Source: Comamonadaceae bacterium | GTDB taxonomy: Bacteria; Pseudomonadota; Gammaproteobacteria; Burkholderiales; Burkholderiaceae_C | DNA: 64,000 nt | NCBI GenBank assembly: GCA_013297985.1 | Contig: JAAFIY010000004.1 | Location: 16,620-80,619 of the forward strand | Direction of reading: 5' to 3' | Shown here: positions 2,810 through 54,426 of the stretch, one piece after another | Numbering within the stretch: position 1 is the stretch's first letter | Layout of the letters: every line of letters starts with the position of its first letter | Translations under genes and position numbers: made by a program | Notes under the pieces: model-generated | Database searches by the model: none | What the model was told of the DNA's origin: nothing | What the model saw: only the letters and a program-made list of their open reading frames with translations

Positions 2810-4270
2810 ATGCCTGAATCTTCTGCTTCGAAGTCGCTGACGGCCACCCTCGCCACCGCTGTTGCCACCGCGCTGGCCGCCGTGTTGGTGGCCGCGCCAG
2901 TTGTGGCGCAAGTCGCGCCCACCCCGGCCGCAAGTGGCAGCGCACCGACACCCGCCGGCGGCGCCGCACCTTCACTGCGGGTGACACCCTCCACCCAAAC
3001 CGTCACGCGCGCCGCGCGGCGCACCGACACCCGCGCCCCGCAAGCGGGCGACTACATCGTGGCCTTGGTCAATTCAGACCCGATTACCAACCACGAAGTG
3101 CGCACCCGCCTGGCTCGCGCCGAGCGCCAACTAGACGCCCAAGGCGATACCTCTTCACGCGACGACCGCCTGCGCCGCGTGCTTGATTTGCTGATTGAAG
3201 AGCGCGCCCAGGTGGCGCTGGCCAAAGAGCAGGGCATGCGCATTGAGGATTCATTGGTAGAGCAAGCCGAGCAAACTGTGGCCGCGCAGAACCAGATGAC
3301 GGTGCCCACTTTGCATGAGCGGCTGCGAGCTGACGGCATGCCGCTAGCCATCTTTCGCGACAACCTGCGCAACCAGCTCATGGTGCAGCGCTTGCGCGAA
3401 CGCGAGCTAGAAAGCCGAGTGCGCATGACAGAGGCCGAGGTAGATCAGGCCGTGCTCGATATGCGCAGCCAGCGTGTGGTGGTGGAGCCCGCCCAGGGCG
3501 AGCTGGCGCAGGTGCTGATTGAGGTACCCGAAAACGCCACCGCCGCCCAGCGCAACGCGCTGCGTGAGCGCGCCGAAACCGTGGCGCGCCGCGCCCGCTC
3601 GGGCGAAGACTTTGCGGCCTTGGTGCGCGAATTTTCCGACGGCGATCGCAGCAACGGCGGCAGCCTGGGCTTGCGCCCTGCGGAGCGTTTGCCCGAGCTG
3701 TTTGTGCGCGCAACCGATCAAACGCCTGCGGGTGGCGTGGCCGGGCCCGTGCAGTCGGGTGCGGGCTGGCACATCATCAAAGTGCTGCAGCGGGTTGAAG
3801 AAAAAACCGAAAGCGTGGGCACCACCGTGGCCCAAACCCGGGCGCGACACATCTTGCTGCGCGCCAGCCCCCGTTTGAGCGAAGCCGCTGCCCGCGAAAG
3901 GCTGGCCGACTTGCGCCGCCGCATCGACCGCGGAGAAGACTTCGCCGCGCTGGCCCGTGAGCTCAGCCAAGACCCGAGCGCAGCCAGTGGCGGCGAGCTC
4001 GGCTGGGTGAGTCCTGGGCAGTTTGTGCCTGAGTTTGAGGCGGTGATGGACACCTTGGACATCAACCAGATCAGCCCGCCAGTGGCATCGCGCTTTGGCC
4101 TGCACCTCATCCAAGTGCTAGAGCGCCGCGACGCCCCGCTGAGCGAACGTGAACAACGCAATTTGGCCCGCGCCGCGCTGCGCGAACGCAAGATTGAGCA
4201 GGCCTATACCGCTTGGGCGCAAGAGGTGCGCGGGCGGGCTTGGGTGGAACTGCGCGAGCCGCCGCAGTGA
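2810..4270 (+). CDS. surA: Periplasmic chaperone/peptidyl-prolyl isomerase SurA
   Basis: SurA escorts unfolded outer-membrane proteins through the periplasm. I start it at ATG 2810 rather than the ORF-track start at 2720. AAGGAG lies just upstream, and this start puts a clean signal peptide ([20 protein letters not shown]) at the N-terminus. The 486-aa product has an N-terminal chaperone helical region, then two parvulin domains. The first is near residues 185-290 ([24 protein letters not shown]). The second is near 340-440 ([27 protein letters not shown]). A basic C-terminal helix closes it. The stop TGA overlaps the probable GTG of rsmA. In many relatives pdxA lies between surA and rsmA; it is absent here. 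Confidence 0.95.
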
Positions 4271-5145
4271 CGGCTGCGCGCAAGGCCGGGGACTCGCGAG
4301 CTGCCACAGTTACGGCTGCGCGCAAGAGCGGGGACGCGCGAGCCGCCCCTGTGCGCACCGGCTGGGCTGCCCTGGGCGCCCGCCACCTGGCACGCAAGCG
4401 CTTCGGCCAGCATTTTTTAAGCGACCCCGGCGTGCTGGACGACATCGTGCGCGCCATTGACCCCCGCCCGGGCGACGCCATGCTTGAGATTGGCCCTGGT
4501 CTGGGCGCGATGACGCAGCCCTTGGCCGAGCGCCTGGGCCGCTTGGTGGTGGTGGAACTTGATCGAGATCTGGCCGGGCGACTGGCCGCCCATGCCCAAC
4601 TCACCGTGCTTGAAACCGATGTACTGAAACTGCCGCTTGCGGCCGTCCTATCAGCCTGTGGCGCTACAAAAATAAGAGTAGTGGGCAATCTGCCCTACAA
4701 CATCTCCACTCCCATCTTGTTTCACTTGCTGGACTGGGCGCCGCAAGTGATTGATCAGCATTTCATGCTGCAAAGGGAAGTGGTGCAGCGCATGGTGGCC
4801 GCGCCCAGCACCGCCGCCTATGGGCGCTTGTCGGTGATGCTGCAGTGGCGCTATGCGATGGATTCGGTGCTGGACGTACCGCCTACCGCCTTTGACCCGC
4901 CGCCCCGTGTCATGAGTGCTGTGGTGCGGATGGTGCCGCGCCCAGAGCCTGCGCCGGTAGCGCCCAACATGCTTGAAGAGGTGGTGCGCGTGGCCTTCAG
5001 CCAGCGGCGCAAACTATTGCGCCACACACTGGGGCCCTGGTTGGCCCAGCATGCGCCGCAGCTTGCGTTTGACTTGCAGCGCCGCGCCGAGGAGGTATCG
5101 GTGGCCGACTACGTCGAGCTGGCGCAGTCGGTACCAAGCGCCTAA
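4267..5145 (+). CDS. rsmA: 16S rRNA (adenine1518/1519-N6)-dimethyltransferase RsmA (KsgA)
   Basis: RsmA dimethylates two adjacent adenines in the 3' hairpin of 16S rRNA late in 30S assembly. The core begins at [12 protein letters not shown] and carries the SAM motif [10 protein letters not shown] and the catalytic motif NLPYNIS. I place the start at GTG 4267, in a GTGA overlap with the surA stop, which implies translational coupling. GTG 4351 is the alternative and would give a normal-length protein. From 4267 the product is 292 aa, about 25-30 residues longer than usual. The surplus is a 14-residue segment present twice in tandem ([28 protein letters not shown]). Whether that extension is translated is not settled by the sequence. 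Confidence 0.93.
4270..4353 (+). repeat. Two tandem 42-bp units at the surA/rsmA junction
   Basis: Two adjacent 42-bp units (4270-4311 and 4312-4353) both begin ACGGCTGCGCGCAAG and differ at only a few positions. In the rsmA frame they encode the duplicated 14-residue N-terminal extension. Each unit is GC-rich with partial dyad symmetry (GCGCGC with CGCGAGC), so a role in RNA structure near the rsmA start is possible. Confidence 0.8.
4641..4685 (-). repeat. Degenerate copy of the dispersed ~50-bp repeat, inside rsmA
   Basis: On the minus strand this stretch has CTACTCTTATTTTTGTAGC followed by a degenerate second arm ending near GGCC. It resembles the intergenic copies but is the weakest coding copy listed. 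It lies in frame just before NLPYNIS and encodes a loop ([11 protein letters not shown]). Confidence 0.4.
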
Positions 5146-44205: not shown

Positions 44206-44895
44206 CTAGGCTGATGCCAAGGCAGCAGGCCACTTCAGCACGTGGCCGGTGTCGCGCTCAAAACGGGCCAGGTCGTCGGGCGTGTCGACGTCGATGGCGT
44301 AGCGCAAGTTGTCGGTGGGCCAGGCCAGCACTTGGCTGGCATGCGCGGCCTGCCATTGGCGGCAGCCCACGTTGGCGTCGCTTTGCAAAATGCGCTGGCA
44401 CACCTCGGCGCTGAAGATGACCGGGTTGCCGCGTTGCTCGCCTTGCGGGGTGCTCACCAGCGGATACACCACCTCAACGCCCTCGGGCCGTTTTTTGTAC
44501 GCGGCAATCAGCGCGGTGATGTCTTGCGCGTTGAGCATGGGCTGGTCGGCCAGTGCCACGATGACGGCGTCCAACTTGCCGGCCAGCGCGCCCAAGCCCA
44601 CCCGCTGCGACGACACCTGGCCCTCTTGCGGCTGCGGGTTGCGCACCAGGGTGACGGGAAACTCTTGCACCACGGGCTCAATGGCCTGGGCATGGTGGCC
44701 GGTGACCACCACCACCTCATCCACCCCGGCGCCCGACAGCGCAATCAAAGCCCGTCGAATCAGCGGGACGCCGCCCAGCTCCAATAGCGCCTTGGGGCGG
44801 TGCCCCATGCGCGAGGCCGAGCCCGCAGCCAGCAACACCGCGCCCACCACCAACCGGCTGTACAAACCGCCGCCACCTTTGAGCAAACAACCCAT
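44206..44895 (-). CDS. mocA: MocA-type molybdenum cofactor nucleotidyltransferase
   Basis: MocA-type enzymes add CMP to molybdopterin to make the cytosine dinucleotide cofactor that CO dehydrogenase uses. The 229-aa protein starts at ATG 44895 and carries the nucleotidyltransferase signature GAVLLAAGSASRMGHRPKALLELGG, then VVVTGHHAQAIEP, ALADQPMLNAQDI, GNPVIF and the C-terminal DVDTPDDL (metal-binding Asp). It lies 7 bp after the XdhC-family gene and at the end of the cox set, which fits a dedicated cofactor-maturation role for CoxL. GTP versus CTP preference cannot be read from the sequence. Confidence 0.85.
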   Translation of the reverse strand: MGCLLKGGGGLYSRLVVGAVLLAAGSASRMGHRPKALLELGGVPLIRRALIALSGAGVDEVVVVTGHHAQAIEPVVQEFPVTLVRNPQPQEGQVSSQRVGLGALAGKLDAVIVALADQPMLNAQDITALIAAYKKRPEGVEVVYPLVSTPQGEQRGNPVIFSAEVCQRILQSDANVGCRQWQAAHASQVLAWPTDNLRYAIDVDTPDDLARFERDTGHVLKWPAALASA

Positions 44896-44902
44896 GATCG
44901 GC

Positions 44903-45796
44903 TCAGCCTGCGCAGCAAGAACGGGCGGCCGGTGCGGCAGCGGCTTGTGTGCCAAAACCGGCTGTTACGCCCTGTTTTACTGCCGAAACAGCTACAAAAT
45001 CAGTAGCAATGGCCTGTTCTGGCGGCGGTGCAGCGCGCCGCGCCTGCACCACGGCGGCCAAGATGCTCAAGGCCACCTCAGCCGGCGTGCGCGCCCCAAT
45101 GTCCAAACCCGCCGGGGCGGTGATGGCGTGCACCGCGTCGGCGCTCAGGCCGTCGGCAATCAGCCCCCGCTTGAGCACCATGGCCTTGCGCGCACTGGCC
45201 ACCAGCCAGATGTGGCGCGCACCGCTGGCCAGTGCTGTGCGCAGCGCTGCGGCGTCGCCCTGGCCTTGGGTGGCCACGACACACCAGCCGCCCTGCGGGA
45301 GGCGGCTGGCATCAGCCGCCACGGGCGTGACTGCCAAATCGATGTGGGGCGACAGGGCGGCCAGCGCTTGCGCCACCGGTGAATCACCCAGCACTACCAA
45401 TTGGGCGGCGGGCAGATAGGGCTCCACAAACAGCTCGGTGCTGCCGCCCGAGGGGCAGGTGGAATTGAACTGTGTCAGCTCATCGGCATCGGGCACATCG
45501 GGCTGCACGCGAATCACGCGGGGCACGCCGTCGGCCAAGGCTTGTTGAGCGCTTTTGAGCACCGCGCCGTGGGCGCAGCCGCCGCCGATCCAGCCGTGCA
45601 AAGTGCCGTCAGCCACCACCAGCGCTTTGTCGCCGGGCTTGGCGGCGGTGGGCGCTGAAGTGCGCAGCACCGTGACCATGGCAAAGGCGCGTTGCTCGCG
45701 CTGCCATTGGGCGGCCAGGGCCAGCAGGTCGTGGGCGCTTGGCTGGGCGCTAGGCTGGGCACTGGTAGGGCTCAGGGGCAGATCAGACAGGTTCAT
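44903..45796 (-). CDS. coxF: XdhC/CoxF family molybdenum-cofactor maturation protein
   Basis: XdhC-family proteins bind molybdenum cofactor, promote its sulfuration and deliver it to the large subunit. The probable start is ATG 45796 (MNLSDLPLSP) with GGAGG upstream; ATG 45817, directly after the coxE stop, is the alternative. The N-terminal XdhC/CoxI domain shows MVTVLRTSAPTAAKPGDKALVVADG and HGWIGGGCAHGAVL. The C-terminal Rossmann domain shows QLVVLGDSPVAQALAAL. A Ser/Gln/Pro repeat (SAQPSAQPSA) precedes the first domain. The C-terminal tail is encoded by an in-frame copy of the dispersed repeat (44960-45009). Confidence 0.86.
   Translation of the reverse strand: MNLSDLPLSPTSAQPSAQPSAHDLLALAAQWQREQRAFAMVTVLRTSAPTAAKPGDKALVVADGTLHGWIGGGCAHGAVLKSAQQALADGVPRVIRVQPDVPDADELTQFNSTCPSGGSTELFVEPYLPAAQLVVLGDSPVAQALAALSPHIDLAVTPVAADASRLPQGGWCVVATQGQGDAAALRTALASGARHIWLVASARKAMVLKRGLIADGLSADAVHAITAPAGLDIGARTPAEVALSILAAVVQARRAAPPPEQAIATDFVAVSAVKQGVTAGFGTQAAAAPAARSCCAG
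44960..45009 (-). repeat. Copy of the dispersed ~50-bp repeat at the 3' end of the XdhC-family gene
   Basis: The minus strand reads TTGCTACTGATTTTGTAGC, then AGTAAAACAGGGCG and AACAGCC. It is translated in frame as IATDFVAVSAVKQGVTAG, giving the protein a tail outside the conserved domains. Confidence 0.65.
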
Positions 45797-45817
45797 CGCA
45801 ATGGCCTCCGCGGGCAT

Positions 45818-47137
45818 TCAGTTCAAGTAGCGCCCGGCTTCCGCCAGGTCGCTCAGTCGATTCAGCCGGACAAAACGCTGCACGCTGTCGTCGCGCCGCA
45901 CCGCTTGCATGGCTTGGGATTGGGGCGCCTCGTCGCTGGGGTGAAACCAGGTGATGCGCGCGCCACGCCCGCGCACGGCGGCCAACGCCGGGGCCAACTC
46001 GTCGGGCGGGTCGGCGTCAAAGCCATCAGACAGCACCCACACCCGCGCGCCCCGGCGCAACTGGCCGCGGGCATGGGTTTGCACAAAGTCGCGCAGCGCG
46101 GTGGCAATGCGGGTGCCGCCGCCAAACCCGGCGGTGACGGCGTTGACCTTTTCTTGCACCGCTGCGCTGTCGCTTTTGAGCAGCGGGGTGACTTCGGCCA
46201 GCCGAGTGTGAAAGATGAACACCCTCGCAAAGCCGCCGCCGCCAGTGCCTTGATGCAGCCGTGCGGTGACAAAGGCACGGGCAATGCGCAAAAACAGTTG
46301 CGCATGGGTTTCCATTGATCGGCTCACATCCACCAGCACAAACAAGCGCGGCGGCTCCGTGCGGGTGCGCACCCAGGCCGGGTGCAGCGGTACGCCGCCG
46401 GTGCGCAAACTGGCGCGCAAGGTGCGGCGCAAGTCCAGCCGGTGGCCGTCGGCCGCTGCATGCCAGCGCCGGGTGGGGCGCGGCCGCAGGCGCTGGGCGA
46501 TGCGCTCGGCCAACTGCTGCAGGCGGCTTAGGTCTTGTGGCAACCATTCATTAAAGCGTTTGTCGTGCAGCGCTTCGGTGCGGCTGGCGCCGCCTTGGGC
46601 GCGCGGGGCGCCTGCTTCATCGGCATCGGCGGCGTCAGGGGGCGGGGCGTCAAGGGCGGTGTCTAGGCCCGGGCGGGGCTGATCAGGCGCGGCTTGCGGG
46701 CCCGCAGCACCCAGTTGTTGCTGTAGGTGCTGCACCAGTTGGCGCATGTCGCGGGTGGGGCGAGCGAGGCCGCTGACGCGCACCGTGCCGCGCACCCGCT
46801 GGGGGTGCCAAAAGCGGTCAAACACATCGTCCCACTGCCGCCAGTCGCGCGCGCTGTGGCAAGCCACCGCCCGCCACGCGGCGCGCAAGGCCTGCGATTG
46901 GCTGGGCGGCAACAGGCAAGCAGCTTGTACCAAGGCTTGTTGTTCGGCCACGCCCACGGTAAAGCCGTGCTGGCGCAAGAGGTCGGCGAAACGGGCGACG
47001 GTGTGCAGCGGCTCGGCCAGCGTGGCCTCTGCCTGCGAGCCAGCACTTACATCAGCAGGTGCTGTGCGGTCGCAATGGCCGCCCGATGTAGGGGATGCGC
47101 TCAGCTCAGCGCGGCGGGGGTGCGGTCGGGCCTGCAT
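45818..47137 (-). CDS. coxE: CoxE-like VWA-domain protein
   Basis: CoxE works with the AAA+ ATPase CoxD to complete the CuSMoO2 active site of CO dehydrogenase. The 439-aa protein has an N-terminal helical region (FADLLRQHGFTVGVAEQQALVQAA), a Pro/Asp-rich linker, and a C-terminal von Willebrand A domain. The MIDAS-type motif is DVSRSMETHAQ, followed by ARVFIFHTRLAEVTPLL, GGTRIATALRDFV and VWVLSDGFDAD. This matches CoxE from carboxydotrophs. The stop TGA is immediately followed by the ATG of one possible xdhC/coxF start. A 27-bp gap separates it from coxD. Confidence 0.9.
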   Translation of the reverse strand: MQARPHPRRAELSASPTSGGHCDRTAPADVSAGSQAEATLAEPLHTVARFADLLRQHGFTVGVAEQQALVQAACLLPPSQSQALRAAWRAVACHSARDWRQWDDVFDRFWHPQRVRGTVRVSGLARPTRDMRQLVQHLQQQLGAAGPQAAPDQPRPGLDTALDAPPPDAADADEAGAPRAQGGASRTEALHDKRFNEWLPQDLSRLQQLAERIAQRLRPRPTRRWHAAADGHRLDLRRTLRASLRTGGVPLHPAWVRTRTEPPRLFVLVDVSRSMETHAQLFLRIARAFVTARLHQGTGGGGFARVFIFHTRLAEVTPLLKSDSAAVQEKVNAVTAGFGGGTRIATALRDFVQTHARGQLRRGARVWVLSDGFDADPPDELAPALAAVRGRGARITWFHPSDEAPQSQAMQAVRRDDSVQRFVRLNRLSDLAEAGRYLN

Positions 47138-47164: not shown

Positions 47165-48175
47165 TCAGGCGCGGCTGGGCGGCGCGACCCGGGCGCCGCC
47201 CGACATGGCCGAAGGTGCCGCATCGGACGCCGCATCGGACGCCGCATCGGACGCCGAAGTGGATTGCACGCCCTTGATGGCCACGCCCTCGTGGCGGCGG
47301 CCTTCCAGCACCTGGCGCAGTTTGTCGGGGCCAAACTGAAAGCGGTCTTCGCGGGTTTTGAGCAGGCAGGCCAGGGTGTGGGTGAGAGCGTTGGGGTCGT
47401 CAGGCAGCTGCCGGAAGGCCAGCGCGTGCAGGGCCCGAATCCAGTCCAAGGTTTCGGCCACGCCCGGGGTTTTGCCCAAGTCTTCGCGGCGCAGGCGCTG
47501 CACAAAGGCCACGGCTTGCTCGACCAGCACGCTTTCGGCCTCGGGCAGCGTGGCCCGCACAATGGCTACCTCGCGCGCCAGCGTGGGGTAGTCCAGCCAG
47601 TGATACAAGGCGCGGCGACGCAGTGCGTCGCTCAGTTCACGGGTGCCGTTGCTGGTGAGCACGCACACCGGCACATGCTGGGCGCGCAGGGTGCCCAGCT
47701 CAGGCACGCTGATCTGCCAATCGGCCAGCAGCTCTAGCAAGTAGGCTTCAAAGCCTTCGTCAGCGCGGTCAATTTCGTCAATCAGCAGCACGCAGGGCTC
47801 GGGGCTGGTGATGGCGGCCAGCAGCGGGCGGGCCAGCAAATAGTCAGCGCCAAACAGGTCGGCCTCTTTCACCCGACCGGCGGGGTCGTTTTCACGCAGG
47901 CGGATGGCCATCAACTGGCGGCCGTAATTCCATTCATAAGCGGCCTGACTCAGGTCCAGCCCCTCGTGGCATTGCAGCCGCACCAGCTTGCGGCCGGTGG
48001 CTTGCGCCATGGCCACCGCCAGCGCGGTTTTGCCCACGCCCGCGTCGCCCTCCAACAGCAGCGGGCGCTTCAATTCGCCCGCCAGCCACAGCGTGGTGGC
48101 CAGCGCTTCATCAGCGATGTAGCCCGCCAGATGCAGCTGCTGGCGCAGGGCTTGGTCGGGGCTGGGGCTTGTCAT
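47165..48175 (-). CDS. coxD: MoxR-type AAA+ ATPase CoxD
   Basis: CoxD is the membrane-associated AAA+ ATPase needed for sulfuration and copper insertion in the CO dehydrogenase active site. The 336-aa protein has Walker A LLLEGDAGVGKTALAVA, Walker B VLLIDEIDRADEGFEAYLLELL, sensor 1 LTSNGTRELSDALRRRALYHWLDYP, and a helical lid. The extreme C-terminus carries a low-complexity SDAASDAASDA tail encoded by three exact 12-bp repeats, outside the conserved domain. It is 14 bp from coxG and 27 bp from coxE, so the set is co-transcribed. Confidence 0.92.
   Translation of the reverse strand: MTSPSPDQALRQQLHLAGYIADEALATTLWLAGELKRPLLLEGDAGVGKTALAVAMAQATGRKLVRLQCHEGLDLSQAAYEWNYGRQLMAIRLRENDPAGRVKEADLFGADYLLARPLLAAITSPEPCVLLIDEIDRADEGFEAYLLELLADWQISVPELGTLRAQHVPVCVLTSNGTRELSDALRRRALYHWLDYPTLAREVAIVRATLPEAESVLVEQAVAFVQRLRREDLGKTPGVAETLDWIRALHALAFRQLPDDPNALTHTLACLLKTREDRFQFGPDKLRQVLEGRRHEGVAIKGVQSTSASDAASDAASDAAPSAMSGGARVAPPSRA
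47221..47256. repeat. Three exact tandem 12-bp units in the coxD 3' end
   Basis: CATCGGACGCCG occurs three times without mismatch. It encodes the SDAA repeats of the CoxD tail. Being a multiple of three, copy-number change would lengthen or shorten the tail without a frameshift. Confidence 0.9.
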
Positions 48176-48189
48176 GTCAGCGCGCCGGA

Positions 48190-48843
48190 CTAGCTGGCCT
48201 TCTTGCCAAACAGGTTGGCAAACCAGCCCTTGATGACGATCCAGGCAATGGCCAGCACGTTGAGCTCTTTGACCGGCTGGGGCGCGGCTGGCGCCATCGC
48301 GCTGGGCGTAGCCGCTACGATTTCTGTAGCTGCTTGGGGCGTTAAATCGCCGGAAGCGGCCGATTCGGCACTTGCACTTTGGGGCGCAGGCACCGCGGCG
48401 GCGGCGGCGCGAAAGTTATCGGCAAACTGCGCCAGCATGGCGTCGCTCACCGGCACCAGCAGCCGGCTGCCAAATTGCGCCAGCTTGCCGCTCACCGTGA
48501 TGGTGGCCACACCCACCAGGGCGCAGGCGGTGGGGCCGGTGGGCTCCAGGTGCGCGGTGAGTTGCATGCTCGCGGAAGACCCACCTTTGTCGGCGCCCTT
48601 GCCCAGCATCATCAATTGCTTGGTGGCCACGTCTATGCCTTGCACCTCGATGTCGCCGGCAAACTGCATCACCGCTGGGCCCACTTTGCTTTTGACCGTG
48701 CCTTTGTAGTGGGTGTCGTCCACCTGCTCGGTGATCTGGGCACCGGGCATGCAGGCGGCGGTGGCGCGAATGTCTTGCAGCACCACCCAGCACTGCTCAG
48801 CACTGGCGGCGATGTCATAGCGTTTGTCGAGTTTGACTTCCAT
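48190..48843 (-). CDS. coxG: CoxG, SRPBCC-family membrane-anchoring subunit
   Basis: CoxG-type proteins recruit CO dehydrogenase to the cytoplasmic membrane and may pass quinone or electrons to the respiratory chain. The 217-aa protein begins MEVKLDKRYDIAASAEQCWVVLQDI with the START/SRPBCC fold (MPGAQITEQVDDTHYKGTVKSKVGPAVMQFAGDIEV). It has an Ala/Pro-rich linker and ends with a hydrophobic helix (NVLAIAWIVIKGWFANLFGKK) that could sit in the membrane. An in-frame copy of the dispersed repeat encodes part of the linker. It lies 90 bp after coxL and 14 bp before coxD. Confidence 0.93.
   Translation of the reverse strand: MEVKLDKRYDIAASAEQCWVVLQDIRATAACMPGAQITEQVDDTHYKGTVKSKVGPAVMQFAGDIEVQGIDVATKQLMMLGKGADKGGSSASMQLTAHLEPTGPTACALVGVATITVSGKLAQFGSRLLVPVSDAMLAQFADNFRAAAAAVPAPQSASAESAASGDLTPQAATEIVAATPSAMAPAAPQPVKELNVLAIAWIVIKGWFANLFGKKAS
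48312..48360 (+). repeat. Copy of the dispersed ~50-bp repeat inside coxG
   Basis: CCGCTACGATTTCTGTAGCTGCTT, then GGGGCGTTAAATCGCC and GAAGCGGC. The first-arm pair GCTAC/GTAGC is clear; the second is degenerate. It lies in the low-complexity linker region of CoxG. Confidence 0.5.
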
Positions 48844-48933: not shown

Positions 48934-51351
48934 TCAGCTCAGCGCCACGCCCGAGGCCTTCAATTGCTTCCACACATTCCAGGCGCTGTGCGGCATGGTC
49001 ATGTGCTTGACGCCCAGGTGGGCAAAGGCATCCACCACGGCGGAGGTGAAGGTGGGAATGCTGCCCACGTGCGGTGATTCGGCCACGCCCTTGGCACCAA
49101 TGGGGTGGTGCGGGCTGGGGGTGACGGTGTGGTCAGTCTCCCAGTGCGGCGTTTCCACAAAGGTGGGCAAAAAGTAGTCCATCAGCGTGTTGCCCAGCAG
49201 GTTGCCCTGCTTGTCAAACGGCATTTGCTGGCCCATGGCCACGGCGTAGCCTTCGGTCAGGCCGCCGTGGATCTGGCCTTCAATGATCATGGGGTTGATG
49301 CGGGTGCCGCAGTCATCCAAGGCATAAAAGCGCCGCACCTTGGTTTCACCCGTGCCACGGTCAATGTCCACCACGCACAAATAGATGCCAAAGGGGTAGG
49401 TGAAGTTGGGCGGGTCGTAGTAGTGCACCGCTTCCAGCCCCGGCTCCATGCCAGCGGGCAGGTTGTTGTAGCTGGCCCAGGCGATGTCTTTCATCGTCTT
49501 GTGCCGGCTGGCGTCACCCTTGACCTTGAAGCGGTCAATTTCCCAGTCCAGATCGTTCTCACCCACTTCCAAGAGGTGCGCCGCAATCTTGCGCGCCTTG
49601 GCGTGAATCTTCCGCGCTGCCAGCGCGATGGCCGCACCCGCCACCGGCGTGCTGCGGCTGCCATAGGTGCCCAGGCCATAGGGCGCGGTAGAGGTGTCGC
49701 CTTCTTCCACCTGAATCACTTCAGACGGAATGCCGATTTCGGTGGCGATGATCTGCGCGTAAGTGGTCTGGTGGCCCTGGCCTTGGGTGATGGTGCCCAT
49801 GCGCGCAATGGCACTGCCGGTGGGGTGCACGCGGATTTCGCAGCTATCAAACATGCCCACGCCCAAGATGTCGCACATCTTGCTGGGGCCTGCGCCCACC
49901 ACTTCGGTGAACGTCACCAGGCCAATGCCCATCAGCGTGGGGCTGTTGGGGTCGGCCCGCTTGGCGGCTTGCTCGGCGCGCAGGGCTTTGTAGTCACAGG
50001 CGTCCAGCACTTTTTGCAAGGCGGTGTGGTAGTCGCCGCTGTCGTACTCAAAGCCAAAGGCGCTCTTGTAGGGGAACTGTTCTTTTTTGATGAAGTTCTT
50101 GGCGCGAATCTCGGCCTTGTCCATACCCAACTTTTGCGCCAGCACGTCCACCATGCGCTCAATCAAATACACCGCTTCAGTCACCCGAAAGCTGCAGCGA
50201 TAGGCCACGCCACCCGGCGCTTTGTTGGTGTAGACGCCTTTGACGCTGGCATAGGCCGCCGCAATGTCATAGCTGCCGCTGACGATGTGAAACAGCCCGG
50301 CGGGGAACTTGGTGGGGTCGGCGCAGGCGTCAAAGGCGCCGTGGTCGGCGATCACATTTGTGCGCAGGGCCAAGATCTTGCCGTCAGCGGTGGCGGCGAT
50401 TTCGCCGTCCATGTGGTAGTCCCGCGCAAAGGCGGTGGAGCTGATGTTCTCAATGCGGTCTTCGACCCATTTCACCGGCTTGCCCAGCACGATGCTGGCC
50501 ACGATGGCGCACACATAGCCCGGGTAGATGCCCACTTTGTTACCAAAGCCGCCGCCAATGTCGGGGCTGACGATGCGCACTTTGCTCTCAGGAATGCCCG
50601 ACAACAAACTCACTACCGTGCGCACCACGTGGGGCGCCTGGCTGGTGATGTAAGTGGTGAGCTCGCCGCGCACCGGATCAAAGCTGGCCACGCAGCCGCA
50701 GGTTTCTAGCGGGCAGGGGTGCACGCGGGGATAGAAGATGCGCTCTTTCACCGTCACGGGGGCGGTGGCAAACACCGCGTCGGTGGCGGCCTTGTCGCCT
50801 GCATCCCAGGTGAAGATGTGGTTGTGGTGGTCGCGCGCGCCGTGGGCGCCGCTGGTTTTGCCAGCGAGGTCGTCGCGGATGACTGGGGCGTTAGGCTCAA
50901 GCGCCTCAAACGGGTCCATCACCACCGGCAGCTCTTCGACTTCAACAATGACCGCTTCCACGCCGTCGGCGGCGGCGTAGCGGTCAGTGGCAATCACCAC
51001 CGCCACTTCTTGCATCTGGAAGTGAATCTTCTCGTCGGCCAGCACCGCAGCCACGTCACCGGCCAGGGTGGGCATCCAGTGCAGCTTGAGGGGCTTTAAG
51101 TCATCCGCCGTCAGCACCGCGATGACGCCGGGCACTTTCAGCGCTTCGGACTTGTCGATCTTTTTGATGCGACCGTGCGCCACCTGGGCGCGCACGATGT
51201 CCATGTGCAGCATGCCGGGCATCTTGATGTCATCGACATAGTTGCCCTTGCCCTGAATAAAGCGGGCGTCTTCTTTGCGCAGGCGCGAATCGCCCATGCC
51301 TTGCAGCGCGGCTGTGCGCTCCAGCACTGAGGGATCAATCGGTGCATTCAT
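48934..51351 (-). CDS. coxL: Aerobic carbon monoxide dehydrogenase large subunit, form I CoxL
   Basis: The molybdenum-copper subunit that oxidises CO to CO2. ATG 51351 (MNAPIDPSVL) gives 805 aa, close to the characterised enzyme; the ORF-track start adds 76 residues. The decisive motif is AYRCSFR (Cys about 386), the active-site loop of form I CoxL whose cysteine holds copper; form II proteins carry AYRGAGR instead. Other signatures are RKEDARFIQGKGNYVDD near the N-terminus, SPDIGGGFGNKVGIYPG, and GAKGVAESPHVGS with the catalytic Glu. The gene follows coxS by 41 bp. Carboxydotrophic or CO-scavenging respiration is therefore expected. Confidence 0.97.
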   Translation of the reverse strand: MNAPIDPSVLERTAALQGMGDSRLRKEDARFIQGKGNYVDDIKMPGMLHMDIVRAQVAHGRIKKIDKSEALKVPGVIAVLTADDLKPLKLHWMPTLAGDVAAVLADEKIHFQMQEVAVVIATDRYAAADGVEAVIVEVEELPVVMDPFEALEPNAPVIRDDLAGKTSGAHGARDHHNHIFTWDAGDKAATDAVFATAPVTVKERIFYPRVHPCPLETCGCVASFDPVRGELTTYITSQAPHVVRTVVSLLSGIPESKVRIVSPDIGGGFGNKVGIYPGYVCAIVASIVLGKPVKWVEDRIENISSTAFARDYHMDGEIAATADGKILALRTNVIADHGAFDACADPTKFPAGLFHIVSGSYDIAAAYASVKGVYTNKAPGGVAYRCSFRVTEAVYLIERMVDVLAQKLGMDKAEIRAKNFIKKEQFPYKSAFGFEYDSGDYHTALQKVLDACDYKALRAEQAAKRADPNSPTLMGIGLVTFTEVVGAGPSKMCDILGVGMFDSCEIRVHPTGSAIARMGTITQGQGHQTTYAQIIATEIGIPSEVIQVEEGDTSTAPYGLGTYGSRSTPVAGAAIALAARKIHAKARKIAAHLLEVGENDLDWEIDRFKVKGDASRHKTMKDIAWASYNNLPAGMEPGLEAVHYYDPPNFTYPFGIYLCVVDIDRGTGETKVRRFYALDDCGTRINPMIIEGQIHGGLTEGYAVAMGQQMPFDKQGNLLGNTLMDYFLPTFVETPHWETDHTVTPSPHHPIGAKGVAESPHVGSIPTFTSAVVDAFAHLGVKHMTMPHSAWNVWKQLKASGVALS

Positions 51352-51392: not shown

Positions 51393-51878
51393 TCAGGCCG
51401 CGACGGGCTCGCGCAGCTTGGCGGCGGCGTACTGCACCGCTTTGACGATGTTTTGGTAGCCGGTGCAGCGGCACAAATTGCCCGCCATGCCGTGGCGGAT
51501 TTCTGATTCGGTGGGGTTGGGGTTGTCTTGCAAAAAGCGGTAGGCGCGCATCAGCATGCCGGGCGTGCAAAAGCCGCACTGCAGGCCGTGCTCTTTGTAA
51601 AAACCTTCTTGCACCGCATGCAGCACACCCGCGTTGGCCAGGCCTTCCACAGTCAGCACTTCAGAGCCTTCGCATTGCACCGCCAAGTGAGTGCATGCTT
51701 TCACTGATTGCCCGTCCACATCCACGGTGCAGGCACCGCAGTGGCTGGTTTCACAGCCGATGTGGGCACCGGTCAGGTTCATTTTTTCGCGCAGAAAATG
51801 AATCAGCAGGGTGCGCGGCTCTACCGCTTCTTCTACCGCTGCGCCATTGACTTTGAGGTTGACGATCTTCTTGGCCAT
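51393..51878 (-). CDS. coxS: CO dehydrogenase small subunit CoxS (two [2Fe-2S])
   Basis: CoxS passes electrons from the Mo-Cu site to the FAD of CoxM. The 161-aa protein has a plant-ferredoxin-type cluster site ([16 protein letters not shown] ... AC) and a second, four-helix cluster site (GFCTPGMLM ... NLCRCTGY). This is the standard two-domain layout of molybdenum hydroxylase small subunits. There is no signal peptide, so the enzyme is cytoplasmic. It sits between coxM (30-bp gap) and coxL (41-bp gap). Confidence 0.97.
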
Positions 51879-51908: not shown

Positions 51909-52772
51909 TCAGGCGCAGCGCGCGGCTGCGGCTTTGATGGCGCGTTGCACCATCTGCCCGGCCATCGCGGTTTTGTATTCAATGTCGCCCCGCAGGTCTT
52001 CGGCGGGGTCGCACACTGCCATGGCGGCAGCGGCGGCGGCCTTGACGGATGCGTCAGTCACCGCTTGGCCGATCAAGGCTTTTTCAGCATCGGCGGCGCG
52101 GATGGCGGTGGGCGCCAGGTTGGTGAGTGCAATGCGGCACTCAGTGACTTTGCCGCCACTCATGCGCATGACCACTGCGGCGCCCGCCGTGGCCCAGTCG
52201 CCGGTTTTGCGCTTGAGTTTTTCATACGCCCAGCCGGTGCCGGGGGCGAAAAAGGGCACGCGGATGGCGGCCAGAATTTCGTCTTCAGCCAGCGCCGTGG
52301 CGTACAGACCCAGATAGAAACTGTCAGCCACCACATTGCGCCGCCCGCCGGGGCCCACCAGATCGAAGCTGGCATTGAGGGCAAGGGTCAAGGCGGGGTG
52401 GTCGTTGCCCGGGTCACCGTGGGCGATGTCGCCGCCAATCGTGCCGCGGTTGCGCACTTGCGGGTCAGCGATCAGTTTCGGCGCTTCGGCCAGCAACGGC
52501 ACGCGTTCGCGCAGGATGGATGACGCGATCAGGTCGTTTTCACTCGTCATGGCGCCAATCACCACCTGGGTGCCTTCTTCCCTGATGCCGCGCAGTTCGG
52601 CAATGCGGTTGAGGTCAATCAAATGCGCGGGCTGGGCAAAGCGCAGCTTCATCATGGGCAGCAGGCTGTGGCCGCCGGCCAGCCATTTGGCGTCGCTGCC
52701 CAGTTTGCCCATCAGCGCCAGTGCGTCGTTGACGCTGGTGGGGGCGTGGTAGTCGAAGGCGGGTGGGATCAT
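51909..52772 (-). CDS. coxM: CO dehydrogenase medium (FAD) subunit CoxM
   Basis: CoxM carries the FAD that hands electrons on to the quinone pool. The 287-aa protein has both FAD-binding motifs of the family, AGGHSLLPMMKLR near residue 33 and TIGGDIAHGDPGND near 112, plus the C-terminal CO_deh_flav_C domain (KLKRKTGDWATAGAAVV). It is the first gene of the coxMSLGDEF order. A 320-bp leader separates it from rcoM on the same strand, and that leader contains three direct repeats likely bound by RcoM. Confidence 0.95.
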   Translation of the reverse strand: MIPPAFDYHAPTSVNDALALMGKLGSDAKWLAGGHSLLPMMKLRFAQPAHLIDLNRIAELRGIREEGTQVVIGAMTSENDLIASSILRERVPLLAEAPKLIADPQVRNRGTIGGDIAHGDPGNDHPALTLALNASFDLVGPGGRRNVVADSFYLGLYATALAEDEILAAIRVPFFAPGTGWAYEKLKRKTGDWATAGAAVVMRMSGGKVTECRIALTNLAPTAIRAADAEKALIGQAVTDASVKAAAAAAMAVCDPAEDLRGDIEYKTAMAGQMVQRAIKAAAARCA

Positions 52773-52926
52773 CGGTGTCGCTCCTCGTTTTGGGGGTGTC
52801 GTGCGGTCTTTGGACGGGCTGGTCCAGACCGCATCGTGAGCCGATTGTGGGTAGGCCTTGCCAAGCGTGCTGAATGCGGGAATTGGCCGTGCCCGGCGCC
52901 GATGCAGGCCATCGGCACAAACCGTT

Positions 52927-52972
52927 CACGAATCGCCAAAGCGCTGCACGAACGGTAGAGTCACTGCACGAA
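52927..52972 (-). promoter_or_regulatory. Three TTCGTG direct repeats, 20-bp period (putative RcoM operator)
   Basis: CACGAA on the plus strand (TTCGTG on minus) occurs at 52927-52932, 52947-52952 and 52967-52972, so successive copies start exactly 20 bp apart. Two copies share the longer CTGCACGAAC. TTCGTG fits the TTnnnG half-site reported for RcoM, which binds triplets of direct repeats about two helical turns apart. Location between rcoM and coxM supports this. Confidence 0.75.
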
Positions 52973-53071
52973 CTGCTTGGTCGCGCAATGTCTGGGCGGT
53001 CATGCCGCGTAAACCCTTAAGGGAAAAACTGAGGCGGCGCCGCGTCTGCCGCGTCGGTAGCGCCCAACTCC

Positions 53072-53087
53072 GGCCGGAATTCCGGCC
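53072..53087 (-). terminator. GC-rich palindrome after rcoM
   Basis: GGCCGGAATTCCGGCC is a perfect 16-bp palindrome starting 5 bp after the rcoM stop, with AATT as the potential loop. There is no U-tract, so termination strength is unclear; it could also be a protein-binding dyad. Confidence 0.45.
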
Positions 53088-53092
53088 CCAAC

Positions 53093-53863
53093 CTAGGCCG
53101 TCACCGAAGGCCCGCTGCGCAGCCGATCCGTCACGGCCGATTGGCTGGTGCGCGACACCGGCACGCGCTCATCGCAGCCGTCCACCACCAGCCAGGTGCG
53201 CCCGGCTTCGCGCACCAATTGGCGCACCCGGCCCAAGTCCACCACCCAGGTGCGGTGCACCCGCATGAAGCGCTGGGCGTCGAGGCGCTTTTCCAGGTCG
53301 CCAATGCTGAGGTTGCAAAAGCGCGGGCCGTCGGGCGTCATCACCCGGCTGTAGTGGCCGTCGGAGTGAATGGCGCGGATGTCGGCCGCCTCCACAAACA
53401 CAATCGCGCCGCCGCTGCTGGTGGGAATGCGTTGCAACTGGCGCGGCTGGGCCTGGTCGGGCAGTGGCGCGCCGATGGATGCCGCGCCGCCGTCGGCGGC
53501 CACCACGTCGGTAATGTCATAGAACACCAGCACATAGCCCATCGGCTGGCGCTGGGCGTCGCTGCTGCGGGTGACCTTGATCAACAGCACCCGCTCGGGG
53601 ATGTTGATGATCATCGTCATGGGCGGCGGGTTGGTCACCGGGCACACGGCGGCTTGGTCCAGCATGAAAGCCACTTTGGGCTGGCTGCGCTCGGGGTGAA
53701 AGTTCAGCACCATCTGGCCAAAAGGCTGCTTGGCGTCCACCGGGAGCACCCGGCGGGCAAAGTCGTTCATGCTGACCACATTGCGCGCTTCGTCCAGCGT
53801 GACCACGCCGACTTCAAAGCGCTCCAGCAAATACAGCGGTGAAACCGGTTGCGCAGCGTTCAT
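53093..53863 (-). CDS. rcoM: RcoM-like haem-PAS/LytTR regulator of CO metabolism
   Basis: RcoM is a single-component CO sensor: haem in an N-terminal PAS domain binds CO, and a C-terminal LytTR domain binds DNA. This 256-aa protein has that architecture. The PAS-like region is FEVGVVTLDEARNVVSMNDFARRVL through MGYVLVFYDITDVV. The LytTR domain is IVFVEAADIRAIHSDGHYSRVMTPDG ... RFMRVHRTWVVDLGRVRQLV. Candidate haem ligands are His56 (NFHPERSQPK), Met84 and Cys74 (AAVCPVTNPP). The Cys-to-Met spacing of 10 equals my recollection of the Burkholderia protein, whose ligands are His74, Met104 and redox-dependent Cys94. Adjacent form I cox genes make the call strong. Confidence 0.9.
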   Translation of the reverse strand: MNAAQPVSPLYLLERFEVGVVTLDEARNVVSMNDFARRVLPVDAKQPFGQMVLNFHPERSQPKVAFMLDQAAVCPVTNPPPMTMIINIPERVLLIKVTRSSDAQRQPMGYVLVFYDITDVVAADGGAASIGAPLPDQAQPRQLQRIPTSSGGAIVFVEAADIRAIHSDGHYSRVMTPDGPRFCNLSIGDLEKRLDAQRFMRVHRTWVVDLGRVRQLVREAGRTWLVVDGCDERVPVSRTSQSAVTDRLRSGPSVTA

Positions 53864-53948: not shown

Positions 53949-54302
53949 TCAGCCCACCACGACGGCGGTGCCGCTGACGGCCACCATCATCATGCCGTTG
54001 GTCTCGCCCAGCACTTCGTAGTCAAAGTCCAGGCCGATCACGCCATTGGCGCCGCGCTCAAGGGCGGCGGTTTTCATGTCGTCCACTGCGGCATCGCGGG
54101 CGCCCGCCAGGGCGCGCTCATAGCCGCCGGCGCGGCCGCCCACCACATCGCGCACCGAAGAAAACATGTCGCGAAAAATGTTGGCGCCGATGATGGCTTC
54201 GCCATGCACCACGCCCAGCACCTTTTGCACCTGCTGCCCCGGGGCGGCGCTGGCCAGCGTCGACAAGAAAAAGCTTTCGTCTGACTTGGAAAACCAGCCC
54301 AT
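53949..54302 (-). CDS. YbjQ family (UPF0145) putative heavy-metal-binding protein
   Basis: The 117-aa protein starts at ATG 54302 (MGWFSKSDESFF); the ORF-track start is 16 codons too long. It matches the YbjQ/UPF0145 family, small oligomeric beta-alpha proteins: VLGVVHGEAIIGANIFRDMFSSVRDVVGGRAGGYERALAGARDAAVDDM, ending AALERGANGVIGLDFDYEVLG. The heavy-metal-binding label attached to the family is a prediction with little experimental support, and few Cys or His are present here. It lies upstream of rcoM on the same strand but is separated by the repeat hairpin. Confidence 0.85.
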   Translation of the reverse strand: MGWFSKSDESFFLSTLASAAPGQQVQKVLGVVHGEAIIGANIFRDMFSSVRDVVGGRAGGYERALAGARDAAVDDMKTAALERGANGVIGLDFDYEVLGETNGMMMVAVSGTAVVVG

Positions 54303-54426
54303 GACAGTGCTCCGTGGCGCCCCCAGAAGGGCCAAGACAAGGCTGCGCACCCGTGCGCGCAGATCAGGTGGCGAGTGTAGGGACGCTGCGCGGCGCTTGA
54401 AGCATCGCGGCTAAAATGGCCCCCAA

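Follow-up and report, generated by a model that had tools for sequence, protein, structure and literature searches.

The window analysed here, a stretch of 64,000 nucleotides from a Comamonadaceae bacterium, contains a carbon monoxide dehydrogenase gene cluster preceded by a gene for a PAS-LytTR regulator. The order on the minus strand is rcoM, a 320 bp gap, coxM, coxS, coxL, coxG, coxD, coxE, a coxF/XdhC-CoxI family gene and a MobA-like gene, and from this gene order we infer the extent of a coxMSLGDEF-mocA operon. The genes are as follows.

53093-53863, minus strand: rcoM-like gene, 256 residues, PAS (about residues 10-121) and LytTR (153-247), from Pfam, the AlphaFold model and relatives
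51909-52772, minus strand: coxM, FAD subunit (PF00941, PF03450)
51393-51878, minus strand: coxS, 2Fe-2S subunit (PF01799, PF00111)
48934-51351, minus strand: form I coxL with the AYRCSFR motif (TIGR02416, 1535 bits; cut-off 991)
48190-48843, minus strand: coxG (PF06240)
47165-48175, minus strand: coxD, AAA ATPase (PF07728)
45818-47137, minus strand: coxE, VWA protein (PF05762)
44903-45817, minus strand: coxF/XdhC-CoxI family gene (PF02625, PF13478)
44206-44955, minus strand: MobA/MocA-like nucleotidyltransferase gene (PF12804)

The start of coxL was placed at a methionine about 76 residues into the longest open reading frame. Both marks of a form I CO dehydrogenase, a CoxL score above the TIGR02416 cut-off and the AYRCSFR motif, are present. 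A YbjQ-family gene (53949-54350, minus strand) lies just upstream of rcoM. Elsewhere in the same genome, a second CO dehydrogenase-like large subunit (L196; G000:C150:26497-28794) scores 672 bits, which is below the form I cut-off, and the repeat pair described below is absent from the stretch read there.

The regulator and its predicted haem ligands

Pfam analysis of the 256-residue protein identified an N-terminal PAS domain (PAS_4, 8.3e-6, residues 14-121) and a C-terminal LytTR domain (9.3e-17, residues 153-247) in one polypeptide, with no match to an MHYT domain. The AlphaFold model has a mean pLDDT of 79.6 and matches the solved structures of LytTR domains (3d6w, AgrA) and of PAS domains, including the haem-PAS domains of Aer2 and EcDOS; a sequence search of the PDB found no structure of RcoM itself. 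The candidate haem ligands are listed below, with their conservation over 87 sequences in which the window protein is entered twice (as L001 and WIN).

53696-53698, minus strand: His56 codon, predicted proximal haem ligand (His in 86 of 87)
53642-53644, minus strand: Cys74 codon, predicted Fe(III) haem ligand (Cys in 86 of 87)
53612-53614, minus strand: Met84 codon, predicted CO-replaceable Fe(II) ligand, Met104 in RcoM-1 (Met in 87 of 87)

These residues align with the His, Cys (+20) and Met (+30) of a plasmid-encoded protein from Paraburkholderia aromaticivorans (L008). The nearest Paraburkholderia relative checked shares only 34% identity with the window protein. The corresponding residues of RcoM-1, which we take to be His74, Cys94 and Met104, have the same spacing as those of the P. 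aromaticivorans protein. Met104 of RcoM-1 is the CO-replaceable ligand according to a title cited in PMC9670170. In the window protein the His-to-Cys and His-to-Met spacings are 18 and 28 residues, respectively; across the relatives the former is 17, 18, 20 or 21 residues, while the Cys-to-Met spacing is fixed at 10. We therefore regard the gene as encoding a putative RcoM-type PAS-LytTR protein, an assignment that is well supported by the domain make-up, the fold and the placement of His56, Cys74 and Met84 on the ligand positions of the family.

Loss of ligands was observed in a single case among those examined. The RcoM-like PAS-LytTR protein L004/L090 (G019:C115:7576-8304), which sits on a long branch, is encoded directly upstream of coxM and has lost the His and Cys ligands but kept the Met; its leader still contains TTCATGTG-13-TTCGTGCT.

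Phased direct repeats between rcoM and coxM

On the minus strand the gap between the two genes reads TTCGTGCA-12-TTCGTGCA-12-TTCGTGAA. The hexamer TTCGTG (CACGAA on the plus strand) occurs three times, at 52927-52932, 52947-52952 and 52967-52972, with starts exactly 20 bp apart.

52773-53092, minus strand: rcoM-coxM leader, 320 bp, the gap between both genes
about 52965-52972, minus strand: predicted operator repeat 1, promoter-distal, TTCGTGCA, core TTCGTG at 52967-52972 (pattern scan and relatives)
52945-52952, minus strand: predicted operator repeat 2, TTCGTGCA (pattern scan and relatives)
52925-52932, minus strand: predicted operator repeat 3, promoter-proximal, TTCGTGAA (pattern scan; GAA ending)

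Dinucleotide shuffling of the 320 bp leader, repeated 20000 times, never produced three equally spaced copies of TTCGTG. With up to three mismatches allowed, the three-copy pattern has an expectation of 0.07 per window, and the only exact match is this site. An earlier note on this DNA had placed an RcoM-type sensor immediately before form I cox genes, with three repeats 20 bp apart between them. The gene order, the TIGR02416 score, the alignment of His56 and Met84 and the re-read coordinates all bear this out, and the triple repeat is far beyond chance. Within its own genome the exact pair pattern matched this site and one further position on contig C146; as a control pattern also gave one match, we take the extra match to be a chance occurrence. 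Matches to the family-wide pattern were mostly scattered over the genome; on a genome-wide scale, then, the pair by itself lacks specificity. A promoter scan of the leader found no consensus sigma-70 promoter and a terminator scan of the leader found no terminator. The Rfam scan gave no family above threshold, the only match being to STnc250, below threshold and on the other strand.

Named genomes were scanned and yielded 80 rcoM loci, in 79 of which rcoM is codirectional with coxM and directly upstream of it; the remaining locus is on a truncated contig. Repeats were counted in 71 non-redundant leaders. The spacing histogram was compiled without an anchor, while the half-site, third-site and period counts were anchored at the best pair of each leader. 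TTCRTG is strongly directional (145 forward versus three reverse occurrences), and its spacings fall at 21 bp (38), 20 bp (31) and 40-42 bp (13), with no weight elsewhere. Of the 71 leaders, 61 hold two TTCRYG copies spaced by 20 or 21 bp, compared with 0.1 on average after shuffling; the repeats are thus conserved. The extended half-site is GC-NN-TTCGTGCA: the third base before TTCGTGCA is C in 84% of cases and the fourth is G in 67%. In the window 200 bp separate repeat 1 from coxM, compared with a median of 138 bp in the relatives (5-95% range 116-168 bp). This operator-to-coxM distance (window 52773-52924), about 60 bp greater than in the relatives, is one real difference between the window and its relatives.

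Two further elements were noted in these leaders. A box of the form G[GA]NNNTNCCC, often TAGGACNTTCCCTGATTGC, is phase-locked 44-45 bp before repeat 1 in 21 of the 71 leaders and is degenerate in that of the window (AGGGTTTACGCGG); it lies about two repeat periods upstream and is possibly the site of another regulator. Six leaders of Limnohabitans/Hydrogenophaga type (L052, L054, L063, L064, L079 and L082) contain an imperfect palindrome, CCYGACTNNNNNGTMGG, about 45-62 bp past repeat 2, which is followed after about 30 bp by a TAATAC-like hexamer.

Co-occurrence of rcoM and form I coxL was surveyed in 401 genomes of the family, with an rcoM query at E up to 1e-25 and the TIGR02416 cut-off for coxL. 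There were rcoM matches in 32 genomes and form I coxL in 37, with both in 31 (Fisher p 4e-39, a value that overstates independence because the genomes are related). Among the six coxL genomes without an rcoM match, two (L191 and L193) do have rcoM and the repeat pair. The other four form I cox loci (L190, L192, L194 and L195), none of which has an intact rcoM, all lack the repeat pair, although two of them lie at the end of a contig and another is preceded by 100 N. In L194 (G363:C252) rcoM ends after the PAS domain, coxM follows 66 bp downstream and the repeats are absent, as if one deletion had removed the LytTR domain and the operator together. L192 and L195 show no end of rcoM within the roughly 400 bp available upstream, and rcoM is absent from 2.5 kb at L190, a stretch that includes the 100 N. 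These natural losses suggest that the sensor and the operator go together.

Comparison with known regulators and alternative readings

RcoM-1 and RcoM-2 of Paraburkholderia xenovorans LB400 are reportedly known from work by Kerby in 2008 and 2012. The window protein resembles them in its PAS-LytTR architecture, in the positions of His, Cys and Met and in a Cys-to-Met spacing of 10; the His-to-Cys spacing differs (18 residues in the window and 20 in RcoM-1 and RcoM-2). The two systems also share a TTCNNGCA direct-repeat triplet with 12-13 bp spacers and form I cox genes as the target, predicted in the case of the window, and in the window this takes the form of a TTNNNG triplet within the range of 20-21 bp periods, near the linked cox genes. 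While rcoM in the window immediately precedes coxM on the same strand, it is divergent in the Paraburkholderia/Caballeronia plasmid loci L008 and L009, which have two repeat triplets each (periods 21/21 and 21/20) compared with one in the window. In the P. aromaticivorans locus (L008) rcoM and coxM are divergent and an OmpW-family gene (3916-4527) separates them; one triplet precedes this gene and another precedes coxM. The cox clusters of Cupriavidus ulmosensis CV2 and Paraburkholderia terrae COX, as presented in part of PMC11771112, contain the same coxGDEF, rcoM and mocA genes in other species, and that part describes no operator for them. The window locus thus appears to be a further RcoM with its predicted operator, that is, a known bacterial switch.

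The earlier note had further suggested that the 20 bp period and the 18-residue His-to-Cys spacing mark a natural variant. Neither trait is unusual. In RcoM-1 sites, three TTCNNGCA repeats are separated by 12-13 bp (PMC11347149), which corresponds to periods of 20-21 bp and places the window inside the known range. The period is 20 bp in 34 and 21 bp in 37 of the 71 relatives, so that a 20 bp period private to the window is rejected, and 20 bp also occurs within the Paraburkholderia/Caballeronia triplets. It is a clustered trait, changing about eight times on the RcoM tree compared with 27 for shuffled labels. The His-to-Cys range of 17-21 residues is a family-wide loop variation. A cross-table showed no link between the 20 bp period and the 18-residue spacing.

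In our view, the locus is very probably an RcoM-type, single-component CO switch, in which the CO-bound PAS-LytTR protein would bind the phased repeats and activate coxMSLGDEF-mocA. The PAS domain would bind haem through His56 together with Met84 in the reduced form or Cys74 in the oxidized form, and CO would displace Met84. The LytTR domains of the dimer would then bind the direct repeats of the leader along one DNA face, and bound RcoM would activate transcription, such that CO dehydrogenase is made when CO is present. Activation is expected by analogy with RcoM-1, which binds upstream of the -35 element and activates (PMC11347149).

Other readings of the same data were weighed. The RcoM homologue might sense O2, NO or redox through its haem and control the cox genes by that signal, since the PAS model also resembles the O2-sensing haem-PAS domains of Aer2 and EcDOS and the identity of the gas cannot be told from sequence. 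We consider this improbable, as the full His/Cys/Met set of the CO-selective RcoM is kept and the genes are tightly linked to those of CO dehydrogenase in all assessable relatives. Somewhat less probable still is that the repeats form the operator of a CoxC-like LytTR repressor that would come off the DNA in response to CO. Three TTNNNGCN repeats at distances of 18-21 bp are the binding site of the repressor CoxC of Afipia carboxidovorans OM5 (PMC11347149), and like the window system that of CoxC combines a LytTR domain with three phased repeats before cox genes. However, CoxC is a membrane MHYT protein, whereas the window regulator has a predicted soluble haem-PAS sensor rather than MHYT and is expected to be an activator, and the 200 bp between repeat 1 and coxM (138 bp as the median of the relatives) leave room for a downstream promoter. 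Nothing specific speaks for binding of the repeats by an unrelated regulator, or for their origin by chance or as a structural feature, and the fixed phase and direction conserved in 71 leaders, the match to the published RcoM site, the absence of the repeats where rcoM is lost and the lack of any Rfam family above threshold make this extremely unlikely. The CO-responsive RcoM switch is thus the reading that we prefer.

Two repeats or three

A third TTNNNG site at 20 or 21 bp is present in 29 of the 71 leaders (22 downstream and seven upstream), compared with an average of 4.3 at other offsets, and strict TTCRYG triples occur in only 11 of the 71, so that the window, with three strong copies, represents a minority form. 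Its exact 20/20 layout is also found in L117 and L038. The third site is degenerate in some leaders (for example TTGATT in the L049 type) and was not seen in the Limnohabitans type. Among the chains listed, the third repeats of the Paraburkholderia/Caballeronia triplets (L008 and L009) end in GAA like TTCGTGAA of the window. It appears from these leaders that two repeats are the conserved core and that the third is variable, which is a new but modest result. Binding of RcoM-1 to its triplet is cooperative, and a two-repeat core departs both from this and from the three-site requirement shown for CoxC. We tentatively suggest, as a possibility that we hold to be rather doubtful, that the RcoM operator of the Burkholderiales is a two-repeat core with an optional, drifting third site, that the number and quality of the sites set the CO threshold of each species and that the three strong copies of the window are a high-affinity version.

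As a natural sensor that binds CO very tightly, RcoM is a lead for CO scavengers, and the literature cited derives its operator from very few promoters that have been tested. The present comparison supplies about 70 predicted natural operators with a clear rule: an extended half-site GC-NN-TTCGTGCA, a period of 20 or 21 bp, two strong repeats and a variable third. With these operators and the joint losses of sensor and operator, the need for a third site becomes directly testable.
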